Shown here: positions 4,816 to 59,850 of the stretch, in pieces
Numbering within the stretch: position 1 is the first letter of the stretch
Layout: every line of letters begins with the position of its first letter
DNA from: a virus
Length of the DNA stretch: 64,000 bases
Direction: 5' to 3' (one strand)
IMG/VR virus record: IMGVR_UViG_3300025011_000030
Location: 21,651 to 85,650 of that record
Made by a program: the position numbers and the translations under genes
The notes under the pieces: model-generated
What the model saw: only the letters and a program-made list of their open reading frames with translations
Told to the model about the DNA's origin: nothing
Databases searched by the model: none

Positions 4816-4843
4816 ATCAGTTCAACAAAGGGAGTGGTAACTC

Positions 4844-5671
4844 ATAAGTAAGGCAGATACAATTTTTATAAACATGTGTCAGAATATATTAAATAACGGA
4901 GTAACTTCAGAAGGACAAAAGGTGAGGCCGAAATGGAATGACGGAACTCCGGCACATACCGTTAAAATTTTCGGAGTGATAAATCGGTACAACCTTGCAG
5001 AGGAATTTCCAATCACTACACTCAGGCCCACTAATTTAAAAGCTGTAATAGACGAAATACTTTGGATTTGGCAAAAGAAATCGAATAACGTTAATGAACT
5101 TAATACTCGAATTTGGGATAGCTGGGCCGACTTTGACGGTTCAGTAGGTAAGACATACGGTTACCAGCTGGGTATTAAGCATAGATACCTAGAAGGGGTA
5201 TTTGATCAGGTTGACAGGGTATTATACGATTTAAAGCATAATCCTTATAGTAGAAGGATAATAACCAACATGTATAATCACCATGACCTACATGAAATGA
5301 ACTTATATCCATGCTGTTATAGCATGACATTTAATGTTATAGGTGATACATTAAGTGCCATTTTAAATCAGCGATCACAAGATGTGCTAGTCGCTAATAA
5401 TTGGGATGTATGTCACCATGCAATTGTTTTGTTAATGTTTGCACAGGTGACCGGCTTTAAAGTGGGTGAGTTAATTCATGTGATTGCTGATACGCACATT
5501 TACGACAGGCATGTTGAGGCCGTGAAGGAGCTTATTCAGCGAGAAACATATCCTGCACCCAGTTTACTTGTTAACCCTGATGTGAGAAATTTCTACGATT
5601 TTTCAGTTGACGATTTTGTACTATTGAATTACAAAAGTGGTCCTCAAATTAAAATTCCTGTAGCTGTTTAA
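4844..5671 (+). CDS. thyA: Thymidylate synthase (ATA start)
   Basis: 275 residues. ThyA converts dUMP to dTMP with methylene-tetrahydrofolate. The frame shows the expected FPITTLRPT, ELLWIWQ-like EILWIWQKKSNN, NPYSRRI, the catalytic cysteine in LYPCCYSMTF, and QRSQDVLVANNWD. The N-terminus aligns with the usual MSKAD start only if ATA at 4844 is the initiation codon: it follows AAAGGGAG by 9 bases, an in-frame stop lies at 4838, and the next ATG at 4874 would cut conserved residues. Followed after 13 bases by dCMP deaminase, whose product feeds it. Confidence 0.93.
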   Translation: MSKADTIFINMCQNILNNGVTSEGQKVRPKWNDGTPAHTVKIFGVINRYNLAEEFPITTLRPTNLKAVIDEILWIWQKKSNNVNELNTRIWDSWADFDGSVGKTYGYQLGIKHRYLEGVFDQVDRVLYDLKHNPYSRRIITNMYNHHDLHEMNLYPCCYSMTFNVIGDTLSAILNQRSQDVLVANNWDVCHHAIVLLMFAQVTGFKVGELIHVIADTHIYDRHVEAVKELIQRETYPAPSLLVNPDVRNFYDFSVDDFVLLNYKSGPQIKIPVAV

Positions 5672-6700: not shown

Positions 6701-7276
6701 GTGAGGAAATCTGTATTTCTACTAAGTTTGTTAATTGTTTTAATAGGGTTTCAAAGTTCTTCAACTCCGGAATTACTATCAACACCTGTAGCTCGTAAAA
6801 CTGTTTCGGTTAGTCGCGAGCCTACTAACTATCTAAGTATACCGTTAGAACCTCGTTATCAAGCACTTGTTAAACAATTAAGCGATACGAATGGGTTAGA
6901 CTTTTTGTTGGTGGTAGCTATTGCAGGTGCTGAGACAGGTGAAACGTACGATGTTAATACGGTGGGCGTCACAGGTGATTTGGGTTTATTTCAGCTGAAC
7001 CCGAATTATTGTCAATACTTCGCAGAACAAGCTGAAGTAGTCAATGAACCGTTAGAGGCCGTACCTAATATCAAAATGGCTCTTTGTGAACTGACTCGGT
7101 TAAGGGACTTCTGGCAAGACAAAGGTAAACAGGGAGTTGACTTAGAGAACTGTATTTTGTCTAGCTATAATAAGGGAATTGCTGGGTTTAATCGGTACGG
7201 TTATGCAGTACAGTATATATCCAAAGTAAATCGTGTTCGTACAGCATTAGTAGAGGAGGTTTCAAATGAATCCTAA
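6701..7276 (+). CDS. Secreted lytic transglycosylase-like protein (SLT fold)
   Basis: 191 residues. The N-terminus KSVFLLSLLIVLIGF is a hydrophobic signal or anchor. The catalytic-domain motifs are AGAETG (catalytic Glu), GDLGLFQLNP and a later SYNKG, the order of the goose-lysozyme/SLT family that cleaves peptidoglycan. GTG at 6701 lies 10 bases after AAGGGAG. Located far from the lysis genes at 49.6-50.8 kb, so it may serve cell-wall remodelling (for example during conjugation-like transfer) rather than lysis; that is inference. Confidence 0.7.
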   Translation: MRKSVFLLSLLIVLIGFQSSSTPELLSTPVARKTVSVSREPTNYLSIPLEPRYQALVKQLSDTNGLDFLLVVAIAGAETGETYDVNTVGVTGDLGLFQLNPNYCQYFAEQAEVVNEPLEAVPNIKMALCELTRLRDFWQDKGKQGVDLENCILSSYNKGIAGFNRYGYAVQYISKVNRVRTALVEEVSNES

Positions 7277-7914
7277 TTGGTTAAATCTTTGCCCGTCTTG
7301 TAAAAACGCTTGCAATGAGGTTCCTGTTCAAGAATACACTCAGTACGAGTTAGACCAGCCTAAAGCTGTACAGTATCATTTCGGTCGTATGTTAGATAAT
7401 ATAAAGACTCCATTAATTCGCCGAGTTACTGCAGGTACTAGAAACATGTCCGGCATACATATTTAAGGTTCCGGCATCCTCTAGCGGCAAGTATCATCCT
7501 CCATTTAGTTTGGGCCGAGAAGGTTTGATTCGGCATATCAAGGCGGCGGTTAAAATTGCAATAGCTCTTTTGGAGCACCCTTACTATGGGTTCACTCAGT
7601 ACGAAAAAGACTTAATCGTTGGAGGATTGTTAATTCATGACTGCGTCAAATCAGGTTTTGATTATGATGAATCAACTGGTAAGGTGCATACTATTGATGA
7701 GCATCCTATGTTAGTTGAACAGTTGATTAACGTTGACGGTTTAGTTGATGTTGATAAGTTAGTAGTGCAAACACTTGTTCAGGCTGTACGTGGGCATATG
7801 GGCCCTTGGCATAAAAACAAAATGCCAGAGCCTAAAACCCGGTTGGAAAGATTTGTACATCATTGTGATTATATTTGTAGTCGTAAAATCTTTTTGGACT
7901 TTGATTTTTCGTAG
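7266..7914 (+). pseudogene. HD-domain phosphohydrolase, frameshifted
   Basis: ATG at 7266 opens a frame with two N-terminal CxxC-like cysteines, which stops at 7466. A +1 shift near 7430-7440, where GCAGGTAC has one G more than expected, restores VLETCPAYIFK then VPASSSGKYHP, an HD-protein lead-in. The second part has GLIRH, LIHDCVKSG and GHMGPW, the HD metal-site pattern. Predicted role: metal-dependent nucleotide phosphohydrolase. The break may be a sequencing error or a real mutation; both halves look under selection. Confidence 0.6.
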
Positions 7915-12210: not shown

Positions 12211-12897
12211 ATGATGGTAAACGTAACCTGCAAGCGTACAGGATTAGAAGGTATTGCAGTAGTAAATATAGACGGTTCTGCAACAATATCATTTGAAAAC
12301 GGTTCAGTTAAAACCGCAACAGCTAGTACATTTAAGCGTTGGTACAAAAAATCGGCCGTGATTGACAGTTCCGAATTTGTAGCTGTTGAAGCTACTGACG
12401 TTGAAGTTCAACTCGAAATACAGCCAGAAGTTGAAGTAGCCGAAGTTGAAGTAGCCGAAGTTGAAGTAGCCGAAGTTGAAGTAGCCGAAGTTGAGGTTAC
12501 CGTTGAGGTTGCAGCGCCGATCGCGGTTGAATCACAAATTCAGGCCCAGTTAGTGGTTGCACCTGTAGTAGTAACCGAAGTTCCAATAAACTTAACTCAA
12601 CCGACCGAAGTTATAATCAGCTTAGTTGGAACCGAAACTCACGTCACTAAAAAAGAAATCGTACATGTTATCCAGCGAGTACAGTTTGGCGAAAACATTA
12701 TTGAGCTACAGTCACAGCAAGGTTTTATTCATGTAGTAAAATTAGTTGACCGGGAAGGTAACTTAATTCACCGCAGTAATAAGGCTAGTTTAAAAGACCT
12801 GTTCGCAACTTACTTCGGTTACGACGAAGCCACTTCAAAGGCATACCGCAAAGAAATAACTAAAGTTCGTAAGCAAGCTGAAAAAACCGTACATTAA
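12211..12897 (+). CDS. Two-domain protein with Val-Glu repeat linker (paralogue of 55766)
   Basis: 228 residues. An N-terminal ~45-residue domain ends ATASTFKRWYK; the C-terminal ~80-residue domain contains VHVIQRV, GFIHVVKLVDREGNL and a final KVRKQAE helix. Between them lies an acidic linker with VEVAE repeated four times. Both end domains recur in the protein at 55766 with an unrelated Ala-Lys-Glu linker. Strong promoter, GGAGGTCAA site and its own terminator imply independent high expression. Function unknown; ATG 12214 is an alternative start. Confidence 0.85.
   Translation: MMVNVTCKRTGLEGIAVVNIDGSATISFENGSVKTATASTFKRWYKKSAVIDSSEFVAVEATDVEVQLEIQPEVEVAEVEVAEVEVAEVEVAEVEVTVEVAAPIAVESQIQAQLVVAPVVVTEVPINLTQPTEVIISLVGTETHVTKKEIVHVIQRVQFGENIIELQSQQGFIHVVKLVDREGNLIHRSNKASLKDLFATYFGYDEATSKAYRKEITKVRKQAEKTVH
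12427..12495 (+). repeat. 15-bp tandem repeat inside gene
   Basis: Four copies of GAAGTTGAAGTAGCC plus a partial copy, in frame, encoding the VEVAE linker. Copy number probably varies by slippage. Confidence 0.95.
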
Positions 12898-13919: not shown

Positions 13920-13952
13920 AACCTTAAAATCGTTATAGAAATGGGGATTGAT

Positions 13953-15037
13953 GTGAGTAAATTTGAATTGTCAATTTCACCTGACTATGTTCCTAATTGG
14001 ACGGTCGTTGACGGTGTTCGTGAGCTTTTCCAGAATGCATTAGACCAACAAACACTGTTACCAAATAATGAAATGTTTTTCAGTTACGAAAACGAAATTT
14101 TAAGAGTAGGTAACAAAAGTTCTGTATTGGGTATAAACACACTGTTATTAGGAGCTTCTACCAAGCGCGAGGACGCAATACCATCGGTAAGTTCGGTGAA
14201 GGCTACAAGATAGCTACGTTGGTATTACTTAGACACGGTAAGCAAGTCACGTTCTATAACTACGGTAATAAGGAAGTTTGGAAACCGCGGTTCGTTAACT
14301 CCAAAAGATTTGGGGCTCGGATCTTAACGTTTTTCGTTGATAAAAAATACTTTTGGCAGTCTGTACCTGACAATAACTTAATCATTGAGGTCACCGGGAT
14401 CACTCAAGAAGAATATTGGGACATTGTGAACTCTAACTTACATTTACAGACGTTAGATCCGGACCGAGTGATAGAAACCGAGTTTGGCCGTATTATAGAA
14501 GACCCAAAGCTCACCGGGAATGTGTATGTCAACGGGCTGTTTGTTTGTGACTATGCACCGTACAAGCTGTCATATGACTTTAAGTCGGCACATATCAATA
14601 TTGACCGTGACCGGAAGTTAGTATCGAACTTTGATTTGGAATGGCTGGCTTCGCGAATGTGGGCTACTGTGGGCGGCCCTAAGGTTGTAAAAATGGCTCG
14701 TGAAGGATATGCCGATGTTAAATATGTGGGTAGTATGCCGGCTGAAGGTAACCTTTTTACAAGTGCTTTGTTTGATTTTCGTTGTGAACACGGTGAAAAG
14801 GCTGTTCCGGTAACTACTCAGGACGAAATGGAAAAAGTCGCTCAAGGTTATAAGCCGGTCATTGTTAGTTCGGCATATATGAAGTTAATAACTTCGTGCT
14901 CGTTATACCGTGAGCCTGACGCACCGAAGGTCACCGTTAAAGGGCGTCTTCATAAATGGTTAGAAGGTGTTGAGACTCGCTTGTATACAGAGGAAATTGC
15001 AGAGTTTAGAGCTATTTTAGTAGATATTAGCGAATAA
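13953..15037 (+). pseudogene. GHKL-type ATP-binding protein, frameshifted
   Basis: GTG 13953 (or ATG 13941) opens MSKFELSISP..., with the GHKL N-box E-L-F-Q-N-A-L-D. The frame breaks near 14184, where GCAATACC appears to have lost one A; the next frame continues TIGKFGEGYKIATLVLLRHG, which holds the GxxGxG lid of the GHKL (gyrase/HSP90/MutL) ATPase fold. The 272-residue remainder includes NSKRFGARILTFF. Restored length about 360. Role unknown; a phage ATP-dependent switch or remodeller. The one-base loss may be a sequencing error. Confidence 0.6.
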
Positions 15038-15157: not shown

Positions 15158-16550
15158 TTGACGAACTATGAGGATTTTTTAGAAAGTAAGAAGTTGTCTG
15201 TGGTCAGTTGCGGGTTTTCTGTAAATGAGTACAGTATTAATCCTAGTTTAAAATTGTTTTAGTCAGACATTGTTAGGTGGGCCCTCTACAAAAAGGAAAA
15301 GCTGCTATATTCGCCGGTACAGGGTTAGGTAAGACTTTAATGCAGTTAGAATGGGCAAACAAAATACATCAAACTACGAACGGTGATATTCTTATTTTAG
15401 CGCCGTTGGCAGTGAGTCGTCAAACGGTGCGAGAAGGGATTAAATTTGGAATAGAAGTTACGAGTTGTCGTTCTCAGGCCGATGTAGTACCGGGAGTTAA
15501 TATTACGAACTACGAAATGTTGCATATGTTTGAATTAGACAAATTTATTGCAGTAGTTTTAGACGAATCGTCTATTCTTAAATCTTTTACGGGAAAAGTT
15601 AGGACTCAAATAATTGAAGCATTTAAACAAACTCCATACAGGTTGGCCTGTACAGCCACCCCGGCACCTAACGACCTGATGGAGCTTTGCAACCATGCCG
15701 AGTTCCTGGGCGTTATGACAAGAGCAGAGATGTTGGCTACATGGTTCGTCCATGACGGGGTGATACGTCTAAATGGCGACTGAAGGGTCATGTGACAGAG
15801 AGTTTTTGGATTTGGGTTGCTTCATGGGCTGTCATGTTACAGAACCCTTCAGATTTAGGTTACGAGGACAGTGAATACATGTTACCTCCACTTAACATTA
15901 TACCTATTGTAGTACCTGTAAAAGGACGTAAAGCTACGACAATGACAGCTCGCAGGGAAGCTCGTAAAGCCAGTCTAGACCAACGGGTAGCTGCTTGTGC
16001 CAAAATTGTCAACTCTTCCAATGATTTGTCTTGGATTATATGGTGCGAATTAAACGAAGAGAGCAGTAAATTAACGTCGGCTATTACAGGTGCAGTTGAA
16101 ATTGCAGGAAGTCACGATGCACTGTATAAAGAAAAGAGTATGGAGGATTTCTCCATTGGTAACATAAGCCGTATTGTCAGAAAGCCTAAAATATGTGGGT
16201 ACGGTATGAACTTTCAAATCTGTCACAATATGGCATTTGTAGGACTGTCGGATAGTTTTGAAAAGTATTATCAAGCAATTAGGCGCTGCTGGAGATTTGG
16301 ACAGTTGAATCCTGTTAACGTGTATGTCATAACATCTTCATTAGAGGGTGCAGTAGTTAATAACATTAAACGTAAAGAAGCTGAGTTCAACAAAATGTTA
16401 TCGGGAATGATAGCAGCAACTCAGGAAATAACTAAATCAAATATACAAAATACTATTAAGGAAAGTTTACAATATATTCCGGTAGCGCCAATGTTACTAC
16501 CGAGCTGGATTAAAACAGAACAGGAGTTTTGTAATGACAAACGTTATTGA
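15158..16550 (+). pseudogene. DEAD/SNF2-type helicase, interrupted by TAG and two frameshifts
   Basis: TTG 15158 opens MTNYEDFLESKKL. TAG at 15260 stands where phage homologues have Gln (LKLF-Q-SDIVRWAL). A one-base loss near 15285 precedes Walker A GTGLGKT, motif II VLDESSILK and motif III TATPAP. A second loss in a G run near 15745 separates GDTSKWRLKGHV. The last part (252 residues) carries motif VI, YYQAIRRCWRFGQ. Intact length would be about 460 residues. It would act as an ATP-dependent DNA translocase; it overlaps the methyltransferase start by 17 bases. As read it encodes no functional protein. Confidence 0.75.
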
Positions 16551-19630: not shown

Positions 19631-19636
19631 TTATTA

Positions 19637-19912
19637 ACGGCAGTTGCATTGTTCTTTCCGGGTATGTTTGTTGTTCATACAGAGAATACAGGTATAAAAA
19701 TCCCACCTGACCCCAATAACTACGAAAAGCACGAATACCCTCATTGGGCAGTGTTTATAACTATTCACTGTGGTCATGCTTTTGATTATACAGTGTTGGA
19801 GGAAAATGCTAGAATTATTGCCAGTATACCTGACGATAAAATTAAGGAAATAACTTTAGACGATTTAAAGGAGCTGGGTTGTGACGTAGAACCCAACATG
19901 ACTTGGGACTGA
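19637..19912 (+). CDS. Hypothetical protein with probable ACG start
   Basis: 91 residues from ACG 19637. The stop TGA at 19628 closes the frame just upstream; GGAGG (19623-19627) is 9 bases before ACG but 21 before the TTG at 19649. Contains a proline-rich IPPDPNNYEKHEYPHW segment and an acidic C-terminus. No domain recognised. Confidence 0.55.
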   Translation, partial: TAVALFFPGMFVVHTENTGIKIPPDPNNYEKHEYPHWAVFITIHCGHAFDYTVLEENARIIASIPDDKIKEITLDDLKELGCDVEPNMTWD

Positions 19913-21602: not shown

Positions 21603-21863
21603 ATGCATGAACTTATAAATTTTATAAAAACTAAAGTTGAATATTCAGAACATTTTGTTAATGTGAATAAAATTATTGCCATGGCTGCTTACGAGCAGTA
21701 CGGGATAATGCACATAGCGCATATTAACTGTTTTAGCTTAAAAGTTTTTAAACAATTTAGAAACAATTATCCTCGATCAGAGATTAGATTAATAGTGTCG
21801 TACGAGGATAACGAAGACATAGACATAGACATAGACATATATACTATACCTACAGCTAGTTAG
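21603..21863 (+). CDS. Hypothetical protein with Asp-Ile repeat tail
   Basis: 86 residues, ATG after a weak GAGG. The C-terminus has (ID)n from a GACATA microsatellite (four copies near 21818-21838). No recognised domain. Followed by a terminator. Confidence 0.6.
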   Translation: MHELINFIKTKVEYSEHFVNVNKIIAMAAYEQYGIMHIAHINCFSLKVFKQFRNNYPRSEIRLIVSYEDNEDIDIDIDIYTIPTAS

Positions 21864-27616: not shown

Positions 27617-27716
27617 TAGTTTTTTTAAATATTTTTGAATAGTAACAGCGAGTAAGAGGTTAATTCCTCTTACTCTTTCACTTTGTAACACGTTACCCTA
27701 ATAAGGAGGTGATATC

Positions 27717-29927
27717 ATAGCAACTCAACAAATTTCACTACAGGAAATAGGTGCAGCTACCCGATCACTATTTAACCGCATGTCCGATACAGAGTACCTA
27801 TCCATACTAAAGTGGCCGTATTGTTTTACTATTTATGATAAGATGCGCCGCTCAGACGCCCAAATACAGGCGTTACTTTATTGTTTGGAGTTACCTTTGA
27901 GATCAACCAGGTGGTATGTAGAGCCGTATGATAAGAACGACCCTAAGTCGGTGCAGATAGCCGAGTACATTGAGGAAAACTTATTCTCCGGCCCACCTAA
28001 AGGGCTAAGTACCCATTGGGACGATTTTATCCGGCTTACTTGTTTAATGTTTCCATTTGGGCATAGCGTATTTGAGAAGGTTTATGAGGTTGATAATAAA
28101 GGATACGCTAAATGGAAGAAATTCGCCGAAAGACCTCAGGAAACAATAAAAGACTTTACCTATGATGAAAAAGGTGGACCGATATTTATTGAGCAGTATG
28201 CAGCCGGGACTTCTTTTGTGCAAATACCTGTAGAGAACAGCTTAATTTTTACTCACCGTAAAGAAGGTGGGAGGCTACACGGTATCTCGGCTTTACGAGC
28301 ACCGTATAAACACTGGTTTATCAAAGACTTCCTACTTAAAATCAGTAACATTGGTATTGAGAAGAACTATGTAGGAACGCCTGTCGCCAGGCTACCTGAA
28401 AATATAGTTGAAGGCGACAAGGAAGAAGCTGAAAAGATAGTAAGTAACTTGCGGTCAGGTCAGGATGCTGGGGTAGTATTACCTTATGGATTTACCCTTG
28501 ATATGTTTGAAGGTAAGCGAACCGCAGTAGAAGTTCTACCTTACATTCAGTATCAGGATGAAATGATTGCAAAGGCTTTTCTAGCACATTTCCTTCAGTT
28601 AGGTACTGGGAGCGTCGGTAGTTTCGCGTTAGGTAAAGACCAAAGTGACTTCTTTTTAATGTCTCTAAACGCCCAAGGTAACTATATTTGTAACACGATT
28701 AATAGCTATGCCATACCGCAGTTAGTTGACTATAACTGGGATGTAGAAGGTTACCCGAAACTTCGCTGTGATAAAGTAGGTGGTCGCGATACTACAGGTT
28801 TAATTACAGGTGTATCCTCGCTTGTAGCTCAACAAATTATACTGCCGGATCAGGGACTAGAAGAATTTATGCGCGACGTGCTAGCCTTACCCGAGGTTGA
28901 CGAGGATACTATACGAGGCGGCCCAGCTGAAGCATTTGCACAAACTGTTGATGCCGATGGAAACTCTATAAATCCTCAACCTAACAAGCCTGCAGCGAAA
29001 AAGCCTGTTACTCCAGAAGACGGACCACCGAAACTTGATCATAAAGTCGTACCTGTTGACGAGGATGAATCAATAAAGGCTACTGAATGTGGTTGCGGAG
29101 GTAAGCAACTTTCGGATAATGCCGGTATAAAATGGCGCAGGGATTTGACTGTATACGAAAAGCGAATAAAGTTCGCCGATATTAAAGACGAGTTTGATAC
29201 CTCGGAGGCCGAGTTTGTTAAACAGGGAACAAGTATATTAGGCGAACAGTTTGCTCCGTTTTTAAAACAATTAGCCATACTTATTCAAGAAGGTAAGTGG
29301 GAAGAAATAAGTAACTTAACTATTAACAATGGGCCGTTACTCACCTATGTTGAAAGTTACCTTACAGGGTTATTCAACTTCGGTGTCGGTCAGACAGCTG
29401 ATGAACTAGATACTGAAGCACCTGATACTGTGCCTGACGTCAACAAACAACTAATCGCAGTCAGGTCGGCCACAGTAGCAGAGAAGACTATTGTACTCCT
29501 TCGTAGCAAAGTGATTTTTGATACTTTAAATAGTGTTGAGTCTGGAACTAAGCCGAAGGATGCTGTTAAGCAGGCTGAACAAGGGTTGAAAGATGTAATG
29601 AAGAAAGAGTTAGACGGTCATGCAACGGTTCAAACTGCATGGGCCATAAACTCAGGTCGTCATTTTGTTGCAGGTGATAGTGGCGTAAAGGTTGCACAGT
29701 ACTCAGCCATTTTGGACGACCGTACTTGTGCACTATGCCGTGAATTGGACGGGCAGATATTTGACGTAACTTCAAAAGAGTTTAAGAAGTTTACTCCTCC
29801 GGTGCATAATCGGTGCCGGTGCATATTTGCTTATATAATGCCTGACGAAGCTAACCCACCCGACCCGAATTTCAAACCACCTTCAGACGACATAGTTCAA
29901 CGTCATGGAAGCTTTGTACCTAAATAA
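27717..29927 (+). CDS. Portal protein (Mu gp29/DUF935-like) fused to a MuF-type domain; ATA start
   Basis: 736 residues. The first ~430 residues follow DUF935 portals (RSDAQIQALLYCLELPLRST, WKKFAERPQ, AFLAHFLQLGTG). The last ~180 residues carry the MuF/gp7 head-morphogenesis signature: AWAINSGRHF, ILDDRTCALCRELDGQIF, PPVHNRCRC. It forms the DNA gate of the capsid and probably carries the minor head protein with it. AAGGAGGTGA (27703-27712) places initiation at ATA 27717; the first ATG is 27780. In-frame stop at 27702. Confidence 0.9.
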   Translation: MATQQISLQEIGAATRSLFNRMSDTEYLSILKWPYCFTIYDKMRRSDAQIQALLYCLELPLRSTRWYVEPYDKNDPKSVQIAEYIEENLFSGPPKGLSTHWDDFIRLTCLMFPFGHSVFEKVYEVDNKGYAKWKKFAERPQETIKDFTYDEKGGPIFIEQYAAGTSFVQIPVENSLIFTHRKEGGRLHGISALRAPYKHWFIKDFLLKISNIGIEKNYVGTPVARLPENIVEGDKEEAEKIVSNLRSGQDAGVVLPYGFTLDMFEGKRTAVEVLPYIQYQDEMIAKAFLAHFLQLGTGSVGSFALGKDQSDFFLMSLNAQGNYICNTINSYAIPQLVDYNWDVEGYPKLRCDKVGGRDTTGLITGVSSLVAQQIILPDQGLEEFMRDVLALPEVDEDTIRGGPAEAFAQTVDADGNSINPQPNKPAAKKPVTPEDGPPKLDHKVVPVDEDESIKATECGCGGKQLSDNAGIKWRRDLTVYEKRIKFADIKDEFDTSEAEFVKQGTSILGEQFAPFLKQLAILIQEGKWEEISNLTINNGPLLTYVESYLTGLFNFGVGQTADELDTEAPDTVPDVNKQLIAVRSATVAEKTIVLLRSKVIFDTLNSVESGTKPKDAVKQAEQGLKDVMKKELDGHATVQTAWAINSGRHFVAGDSGVKVAQYSAILDDRTCALCRELDGQIFDVTSKEFKKFTPPVHNRCRCIFAYIMPDEANPPDPNFKPPSDDIVQRHGSFVPK

Positions 29928-38805: not shown

Positions 38806-38817
38806 TTAGCTGGAGGT
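38784..38817 (+). promoter_or_regulatory. Hairpin sequestering the integrase ribosome binding site
   Basis: ACCTCCAGCTA (38784-38794) pairs perfectly with TAGCTGGAGGT (38807-38817) around a 12-base loop. The right arm contains GGAGG (38812-38816), the integrase Shine-Dalgarno. Transcripts from upstream would hide it; a transcript starting at the local promoter would not carry the left arm. Confidence 0.7.
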
Positions 38818-38824
38818 GATTATT

Positions 38825-39667
38825 TTGTTATTAACCGAATCTTACAAATTATACGATGCTGACAAACGGTTACTTGGTTATTCGCCACATACATTAACAG
38901 CTTACGGGTTACAAATAAAACTACTTATTCGGGATATAGGGGATGTTGAAATTTCAACTGTTACCTACTTACAACTGAAGGAATATTTGATTAAACAAGA
39001 GCATCTTAAGCCGGCTTCAGTTGGTCACCGAATAAGGTTCATTAGATCGTTTTTCAGATATCTGCACGAAGAAGGATTCATGGAACGAAATATTTCGGCC
39101 AAACTTAGGGAACCCAAACAAGGTACTAGGGTTCCAAAGTTTTTAAACGAAGAAGAAGTTGAATTGTTAAGGGATAGCTGTAATACTTTACTTGAAAAGT
39201 CTCTCACTGAATTTTTCTATGCCACAGGATGTAGGATTGGTGAAGTAGCAGGTCTCAACCGAAAGGATATTGATTGGGACTCCCGGTCGGCTATGGTTAT
39301 TGGTAAAGGTGACAAACAACGGGAAGTGTACTTTACTGTCAAGTGCCGAGTATGGTTACAGAAGTATTTACAAAGTCGAACCGATGATTGCGAAGCTTTG
39401 TTTGTTACCGTGCGAAAACCTATTCGCAGAATGTCTATAGCTAGGATTAGAGAAGTCATAAAAGCTGTTGCCCAACATTCTGAAGTTGAGACTAATGTTT
39501 ATCCTCATCGGTGGCGACACACTACAGCCACTGTTATGGTTAACAATGGAGCTCCTATTGAAGTAATACAGTCTAACTTGGGTCACGCTAGACCAACTAC
39601 TACAATGATATATGCGCACTTATCTGGCGAACGTCGCCGTCAAGAGTACAACAGGTATTTTAGGTAA
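38825..39667 (+). CDS. int: Tyrosine recombinase/integrase
   Basis: 280 residues. N-terminal SAM-like arm-binding domain, then the catalytic set: R in TGCRIGEVAGL, H and R in YPHRWRHT, H in LGHARPTT and the Tyr in TMIYAHLS. XerC/D-like size. It catalyses site-specific recombination, for lysogeny or dimer resolution. TTG 38825 after GGAGGTGA. Its place inside the tail module is unusual, and no att-like repeat is apparent beside it. Confidence 0.9.
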   Translation: MLLTESYKLYDADKRLLGYSPHTLTAYGLQIKLLIRDIGDVEISTVTYLQLKEYLIKQEHLKPASVGHRIRFIRSFFRYLHEEGFMERNISAKLREPKQGTRVPKFLNEEEVELLRDSCNTLLEKSLTEFFYATGCRIGEVAGLNRKDIDWDSRSAMVIGKGDKQREVYFTVKCRVWLQKYLQSRTDDCEALFVTVRKPIRRMSIARIREVIKAVAQHSEVETNVYPHRWRHTTATVMVNNGAPIEVIQSNLGHARPTTTMIYAHLSGERRRQEYNRYFR

Positions 39668-59337: not shown

Positions 59338-59370
59338 ATCAACTGAATAACATTGAAGGAGGTTTCTATT

Positions 59371-59850
59371 ATAGCTATTGTTATTGATAAAGAAGATGTT
59401 AAAAGTATGCCGGCAACTAATTCAGTTGAAACGGTTGCAGTGAAAATCGCTTCACCACCGTCAGTAGTATTAAGTGCATCAGTCCTTTCGAGGTATATTG
59501 ACTTAAAGTCTCGGGAAAAAGTATTAAAGGTTGACATTGATGTACTAAACAAGGGAATTAAGGCCGTGATGAAAGAAAAAGATCTTGCACGTTTCGAGGA
59601 CGGTCAGTTTATAGCCACTTATAGTACATCGTGCAAAGCTGTACCGGACGAAGAAAAAATGATTGCAAGGTTGAAAGAATTAGGCTTTACTGAAGCCATT
59701 AAAATCAAAGAAGTAGTTGATGCCGAAGTGGTAGAGAGCTTGATGTATCACGGAAAGATTACTGCAGCTGAAATGGCTGACTGTGTATCCGAGGGGCCGC
59801 CGGTAGCGACTTTGCGGGTAACTCGTAAAAAAGAAAAGAAAGGAACATAA
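59371..59850 (+). CDS. Hypothetical protein with ATA start
   Basis: 159 residues from ATA 59371 (ATA GCT ATT). AAGGAGG (59356-59362) lies 8 bases upstream; the TTG at 59353 overlaps that site and cannot serve. Central helical part (REKVLKVDIDVLNKGIKAVMK) and a strand-rich second half. The gene sits in a replication region; function unknown. Confidence 0.65.
   Translation: MAIVIDKEDVKSMPATNSVETVAVKIASPPSVVLSASVLSRYIDLKSREKVLKVDIDVLNKGIKAVMKEKDLARFEDGQFIATYSTSCKAVPDEEKMIARLKELGFTEAIKIKEVVDAEVVESLMYHGKITAAEMADCVSEGPPVATLRVTRKKEKKGT

Follow-up and report, generated by a model that had tools for sequence, protein, structure and literature searches.

infC is the textbook case of a gene with a non-canonical start codon. 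Ribosome profiling in Staphylococcus aureus has placed the starts of infC, ccpN and citZ at AUA and that of cvfC1 at AUU, and the corresponding reporters for ccpN, citZ and cvfC1 yielded about 10% of the level obtained with AUG; in rich medium the ccpN reporter reached as much as 30% (PMC13009471). Weak pairing at the third position is disfavoured by IF3 in vitro (PMC10158994). The pncA gene (bbe22) of Borrelia burgdorferi has an AUU start that databases had missed, the longer N-terminus having been confirmed by structure (PMC13398362). As regards phages, the passages on initiation codons in the report of Campylobacter phage vB_CcoM-IBB_35 give 8.2% ATA, 4.2% ATT and 3.1% ATC for its annotation (PMC3322345), and the recorded start of yoqL in Bacillus phage SPbeta, at 89368, is an ATT codon. 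A guide to phage annotation lists TTG, CTG, ATT and ATC as alternative starts, and ATA is absent from this list (PMC8785237). The usual gene finders ignore ATA starts. The AUH starts that are known are isolated ones (infC, ccpN, Borrelia pncA, SPbeta yoqL), and we found no paper with evidence that ATA is used recurrently in the core genes of phages (portal, ThyA, DHFR, RuvC, DNA polymerase). What is new here is a start-by-start comparative case for repeated ATA use in certain clostridial-type phages, including in portal and nucleotide-metabolism genes.

Results

The window analysed here is a stretch of 64,000 nucleotides, corresponding to positions 21651–85650 of an 85,650-bp virus record (G000), and coordinates refer to the window unless otherwise stated. 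The thyA gene (4844–5671, + strand, as are all features of this locus) encodes a thymidylate synthase of 275 aa, identified by alignment with its relatives and by a full-length match to PF00303 (E 1.2e-83, 280.8 bits; residues 7–275 against profile positions 2–266 of 266). The catalytic Cys of the Pro-Cys motif is present, P156 and C157 being invariant in the ThyA alignment. The 5' end of the gene (4844–4858) reads ATA AGT AAG GCA GAT. It is preceded by a Shine–Dalgarno (SD) sequence, AAAGGGAG (4827–4834; anti-SD duplex −11.5 kcal/mol), which is separated from the ATA (4844–4846) by a nine-base spacer, TGGTAACTC (4835–4843). The spacer holds an in-frame TAA (4838–4840), so that a thyA start farther upstream is ruled out. 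From this stop to the first in-frame ATG (4874–4876, internal codon 11) the codons are CTC ATA AGT AAG GCA GAT ACA ATT TTT ATA AAC, with no ATG, GTG or TTG among them. Direct reading thus bears out every element on which the sequence-only reading had built its claim of an ATA start, namely the SD, the nine bases, the ATA at 4844, the stop at 4838 and the lack of a canonical codon until 4874.

When ThyA relatives from 80 bacterial and 30 viral loci (29, and one added by a second scan) were compared, a canonical start was found at the codon homologous to 4844 in 106 of the 110. The bacterial codon was canonical in 80/80 (ATG 71, TTG 6, GTG 3); the viral codon was ATG in 20, TTG in five, GTG in one and ATT in two, two further loci being unaligned there. 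Both ATT codons belong to the nearest relatives, L001 and L002 (78% and 79% protein identity), whose frames are open. In a maximum-likelihood ThyA tree these two group with the window in one clade of three members (support 98/97), and the whole of this known clade lacks a canonical start, with ATA in the window and ATT in L001 and L002; the thyA ATA itself was found in one record only. A 4-bp hairpin in the SD–ATA interval was no better than that of shuffled sequence (z −0.66), and its sequence is not common to L001 and L002. The homologous starts of the relatives, the clade, the SD and the further ATA starts described below all support ATA 4844 as the probable start codon.

Further candidates were sought in G000 by inspecting ORFs that have no SD-backed canonical start. 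At least four of its approximately 112 ORFs appear, from their sequences, to start at ATA: thyA, the portal gene, a tgt/DpdA-like gene and a gene at 59371. The portal gene (27717–29927, + strand), whose product matches Portal_Mu (E 2.4e-46), has the SD TAAGGAGGTGAT (27702–27713, + strand) with the ATA at spacing 7; this ATA aligns with the ATG at the homologous codon of L044 (65% identity), the ATG of L039–L041 lies one codon downstream of its position, and homology reaches upstream beyond the first ATG, at 27780. The tgt/DpdA-like gene (PHROG 887) lies to the left of the window, at 12841 of G000, where AGGAGGTG is followed by ATA, and its product, from residue 1 onward, aligns with the annotated starts of Streptococcus phages MS1 (3417) and Dp-1 (3793). 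The fourth gene (59371–59850, + strand), of 159 aa and with a weak Gam-like match, has the SD AAGGAGGT (59356–59363, + strand) with ATA at spacing 8; its ATA start is probable and short of firm, because a search found no relatives and an in-frame TTG, itself without an SD, lies six codons upstream. Three other candidates were rejected: dnaX (876–1976), where a well-placed TTG adjoins the ATA; the tape measure gene, which has a GTG behind its ATC; and a holin-like ORF, which has a GTG.

Several other features of the phage were observed in passing. Frameshifts seem to split three genes (7266–7914, 13941–15037 and 15277–16550), by eye an HD-domain, a GHKL-ATPase-like and a SNF2-helicase-like gene respectively, which points to assembly indels or gene decay. 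A 94-codon ORF (19631–19912) lies behind a very strong SD, GGAGGTGAT (−17.7 kcal/mol), and has no suitably placed ATG, GTG, TTG or ATH, the codon at spacing 8 being ACG (19637), followed by GCA. QueD-like and QueE-like ORFs (by eye) accompany the tgt/DpdA-like gene (PHROG 887) in L031 (5668–6809, 12841–13644), a set of genes whose sequences suggest 7-deazaguanine DNA modification in the phage. A tyrosine-recombinase-like gene (38816–39667) lies amid structural genes, and the phage may, judging from this gene, be temperate. ARAGORN found no tRNA genes in the phage record.

ATA candidates were also found in other phages. The record of L002 (G002) shares almost nothing besides thyA with G000, yet has ATA candidates of its own, the clearest being a RuvC-like gene that begins ATA AAA ATC GTT GGT ATA GAC GCT AGT and whose first canonical codon falls behind the GIDAS motif. 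Among genes whose N-termini are known, G011 contributes DHFR, a C5-methyltransferase and the PHP end of DnaE, and G008 contributes a guanylate kinase whose next canonical codon comes only after the P-loop, 61 codons in. FolD (G011) and aspartate/ornithine carbamoyltransferase (G008) also fit, each with a poorly placed in-frame upstream ATG. Separately, the annotated start of yoqJ in SPbeta (NC_001884; 88434–89105), at 88590, omits a conserved-looking VCFTGHRP stretch, and an ATA with an SD at 88434 may be its true start.

The general tendency was assessed by an enrichment test confined to ORFs without an SD-backed ATG, GTG or TTG, in which the codon lying 6–9 nt past the strongest SD (with a threshold of −10 kcal/mol or lower) was scored against counts expected from the codon frequencies of the same stretches. 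Pooled over 14 viral contigs, with thresholds that were set during the analysis and ORF lists that include false ORFs, ATA occurred at this spacing 34 times against 4.99 expected (Poisson 1.5e-17). The excess was found only there, ATA occurring three times at spacing 3–5 (3.9 expected) and once at 10–12 (3.1 expected), and it was weaker for ATT (10 versus 5.3) and ATC (5 versus 2.0). Twenty scrambled anti-SD probes gave between one and 17 ATA matches, fewer than 10 in 18 of the 20. By record, observed and expected ATA counts were 6 and 0.52 in G000, 4 and 0.41 in G002, 4 and 0.24 in G003, 3 and 0.23 in G005, 7 and 0.85 in G008, 5 and 0.88 in G011 and 3 and 0.67 in G010; of the six sites counted in G000, two are weak and apparently false, one (30195) lying within an RNase H gene and the other (46814) being a small ORF. 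By the same test the ATA excess was absent in G004, G009, G013, G015 and G017, and a control set of T4, lambda, SPO1, phiC2, SPbeta and E3, together with about 200 kb from each of two clostridial chromosomes, gave 5 versus 3.2 when pooled. Random IMG/VR viral contigs, searched with one exact SD string, gave no general ATA excess (16/67 versus 9/33 long ORFs, the AAT control being uneven, as an AAT with a G after it creates an ATG), which argues that ATA starts are not a feature of all phages. The mean SD energy was −13.4 kcal/mol for 29 ATA sites, which had been preselected at −10 or below, and −12.7 kcal/mol for 190 ATG sites, and an SD of at least 8 nt was present in 3/3 ATA and 4/23 ATG genes of G000; the SDs of ATA genes are not clearly stronger than those of ATG genes.

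Discussion

We consider it very probable that ATA 4844 is the start codon of thyA, where the SD places the ribosome and fMet-tRNA would read the codon, and that ATA is a weak extra start codon which recurs across this and other clostridial-type phages. The position of the start, its conservation, and the enrichment and spacing of ATA starts are what the sequences themselves attest. The sequence-only reading had considered thyA only; ATA starts now appear to be a trait of this phage and of several others. In the mechanism that we propose, the SD would place the 30S subunit, and with it the ribosome, at the AUA of thyA, where the initiator fMet-tRNA would read AUA with a third-position mismatch to give the N-terminus fMet-Ser-Lys-Ala-Asp. 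IF3 would be expected to lower the rate of initiation at AUA and hence to keep the yield of ThyA below the AUG level, and expression may, by analogy with infC, be both reduced and dependent on the level of IF3. In these phages an SD of normal to high strength would then allow ATA, and less often ATT or ATC, to act as one more weak start codon. The infC starts, the AUA reporters of S. aureus and the in vitro behaviour of IF3 together make AUA initiation of reduced yield plausible in this kind of host, which we infer to be clostridial from the nearest bacterial ThyA relatives. A search for the host by way of prophages found only a broken portal relic (approximately 70% identity) in one Bacillota genome without an ATA excess. 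ATA may have been kept because weak or IF3-linked expression is selected, because host ribosomes tolerate AUA, or because selection against ATG-to-ATA mutation is weak.

A different cause for the same start is conceivable and, in our judgement, unlikely: the hosts may initiate efficiently at AUA, through a relaxed IF3 or an altered initiator tRNA, so that ATA would be near-neutral rather than a low-expression device. Some phages show a strong ATA excess and others that have related ThyA or portal genes (G004, G009, G013, G017) show none, as though it tracked the host; the viral records searched gave no IF3 gene, and a filter for gene families specific to ATA phages passed only homing-endonuclease-like and integrase-like ones. 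On the other hand, the bacterial genome samples that were tested have no ATA excess. It is likewise doubtful, at present a tentative proposal, that in some clostridial-type phages ATA is a regular fourth start codon, used by several percent of genes of all kinds with near-normal efficiency owing to altered start-codon proofreading in the hosts.

That ThyA starts at ATG 4874 and is ten residues shorter seems to us improbable. This ATG is the first canonical in-frame codon, but no SD was found ahead of it, in contrast to the good SD nine nt ahead of the ATA, and it lies ten codons into a conserved N-terminus. Codons 2–10 of thyA differ between the window and L001, and between the window and L002, by three synonymous and two non-synonymous changed codons of the nine, and much of the protein sequence between the ATA and ATG 4874 is kept, partly via synonymous changes; this conservation and the lack of an SD make a start at 4874 unlikely. 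None of the relatives that align at codon 1 starts at this position.

Less probable still is an assembly or sequencing error that hides a true ATG, the G-to-A artefact which the sequence-only reading had named as its alternative. In its favour, three genes of the window are split, which suggests indel errors or else decay, and the thyA ATA is known from a single record. An ATG-to-ATA error would, however, leave the ATT of the two nearest relatives unexplained, and a clade of three without any canonical start makes such an artefact unlikely. The artefact is contradicted not only by these two contigs but by at least three more ATA starts in the phage, and the portal ATA recurs identically in a second IMG/VR assembly, possibly of the same sample (L038; 0 mismatches in 8208 bp); the excess is, moreover, specific to ATA behind an SD. 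Loss of a start codon by mutation is a frequent first step in gene decay, but a dead or dying thyA from which no ThyA is made is equally hard to credit when 275 codons are open with a full Pfam match, the whole clade (78–79% protein identity) has ATA or ATT with open frames, and the trait is common to essential structural genes such as portal.

If a weak ATA start recurs as we propose, many proteins of phages from such hosts will have been annotated too short, at times without catalytic residues, and should ATA prove to be a regular fourth start, standard gene finders would truncate or miss such genes. Phages that have related genes but differ in being rich or poor in ATA starts offer a natural test of what determines start-codon stringency.

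The described systems each share part of this pattern. B. burgdorferi pncA differs in being a spirochete plasmid gene with AUU rather than AUA (PMC13398362). For vB_CcoM-IBB_35, a phage of another host phylum, the passages on initiation codons offer percentages only, without start-by-start comparative or experimental support (PMC3322345). SPbeta yoqL has, like thyA here, a non-canonical AUH start, whereas SPbeta as a whole has no clear ATA excess (2 versus 0.53 expected). In a Bacillota genome, ABC-F-like (L300, 6847) and HTH-regulator-like (L310, 15290) genes seem to have ATT starts with a strong SD, and ATH starts may therefore be under-annotated in chromosomes too. All 38 infC loci that we compared in Bacillota, clostridial and other, start at ATT (25), ATC (nine) or ATA (four) with strong SDs. 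As in infC, an AUH codon replaces ATG, GTG or TTG behind a strong SD, and the AUH start of thyA is, as would be expected of an infC-type gene, common to its whole clade, here of three sequences only. infC, however, is a single chromosomal gene autoregulated by its own product, whereas several unrelated phage genes are involved here, none of them encoding IF3. No IF3 gene was found in the viral records searched, so thyA may resemble infC at the start codon and yet not be an autoregulated gene of the infC type. The S. aureus genes ccpN and citZ (AUA) and cvfC1 (AUU) are similar in their AUH starts, theirs having an extended SD (PMC13009471). In S. aureus, though, a handful of chromosomal genes is concerned, whereas in the phages described here ATA is the apparent start of several percent of ORFs.
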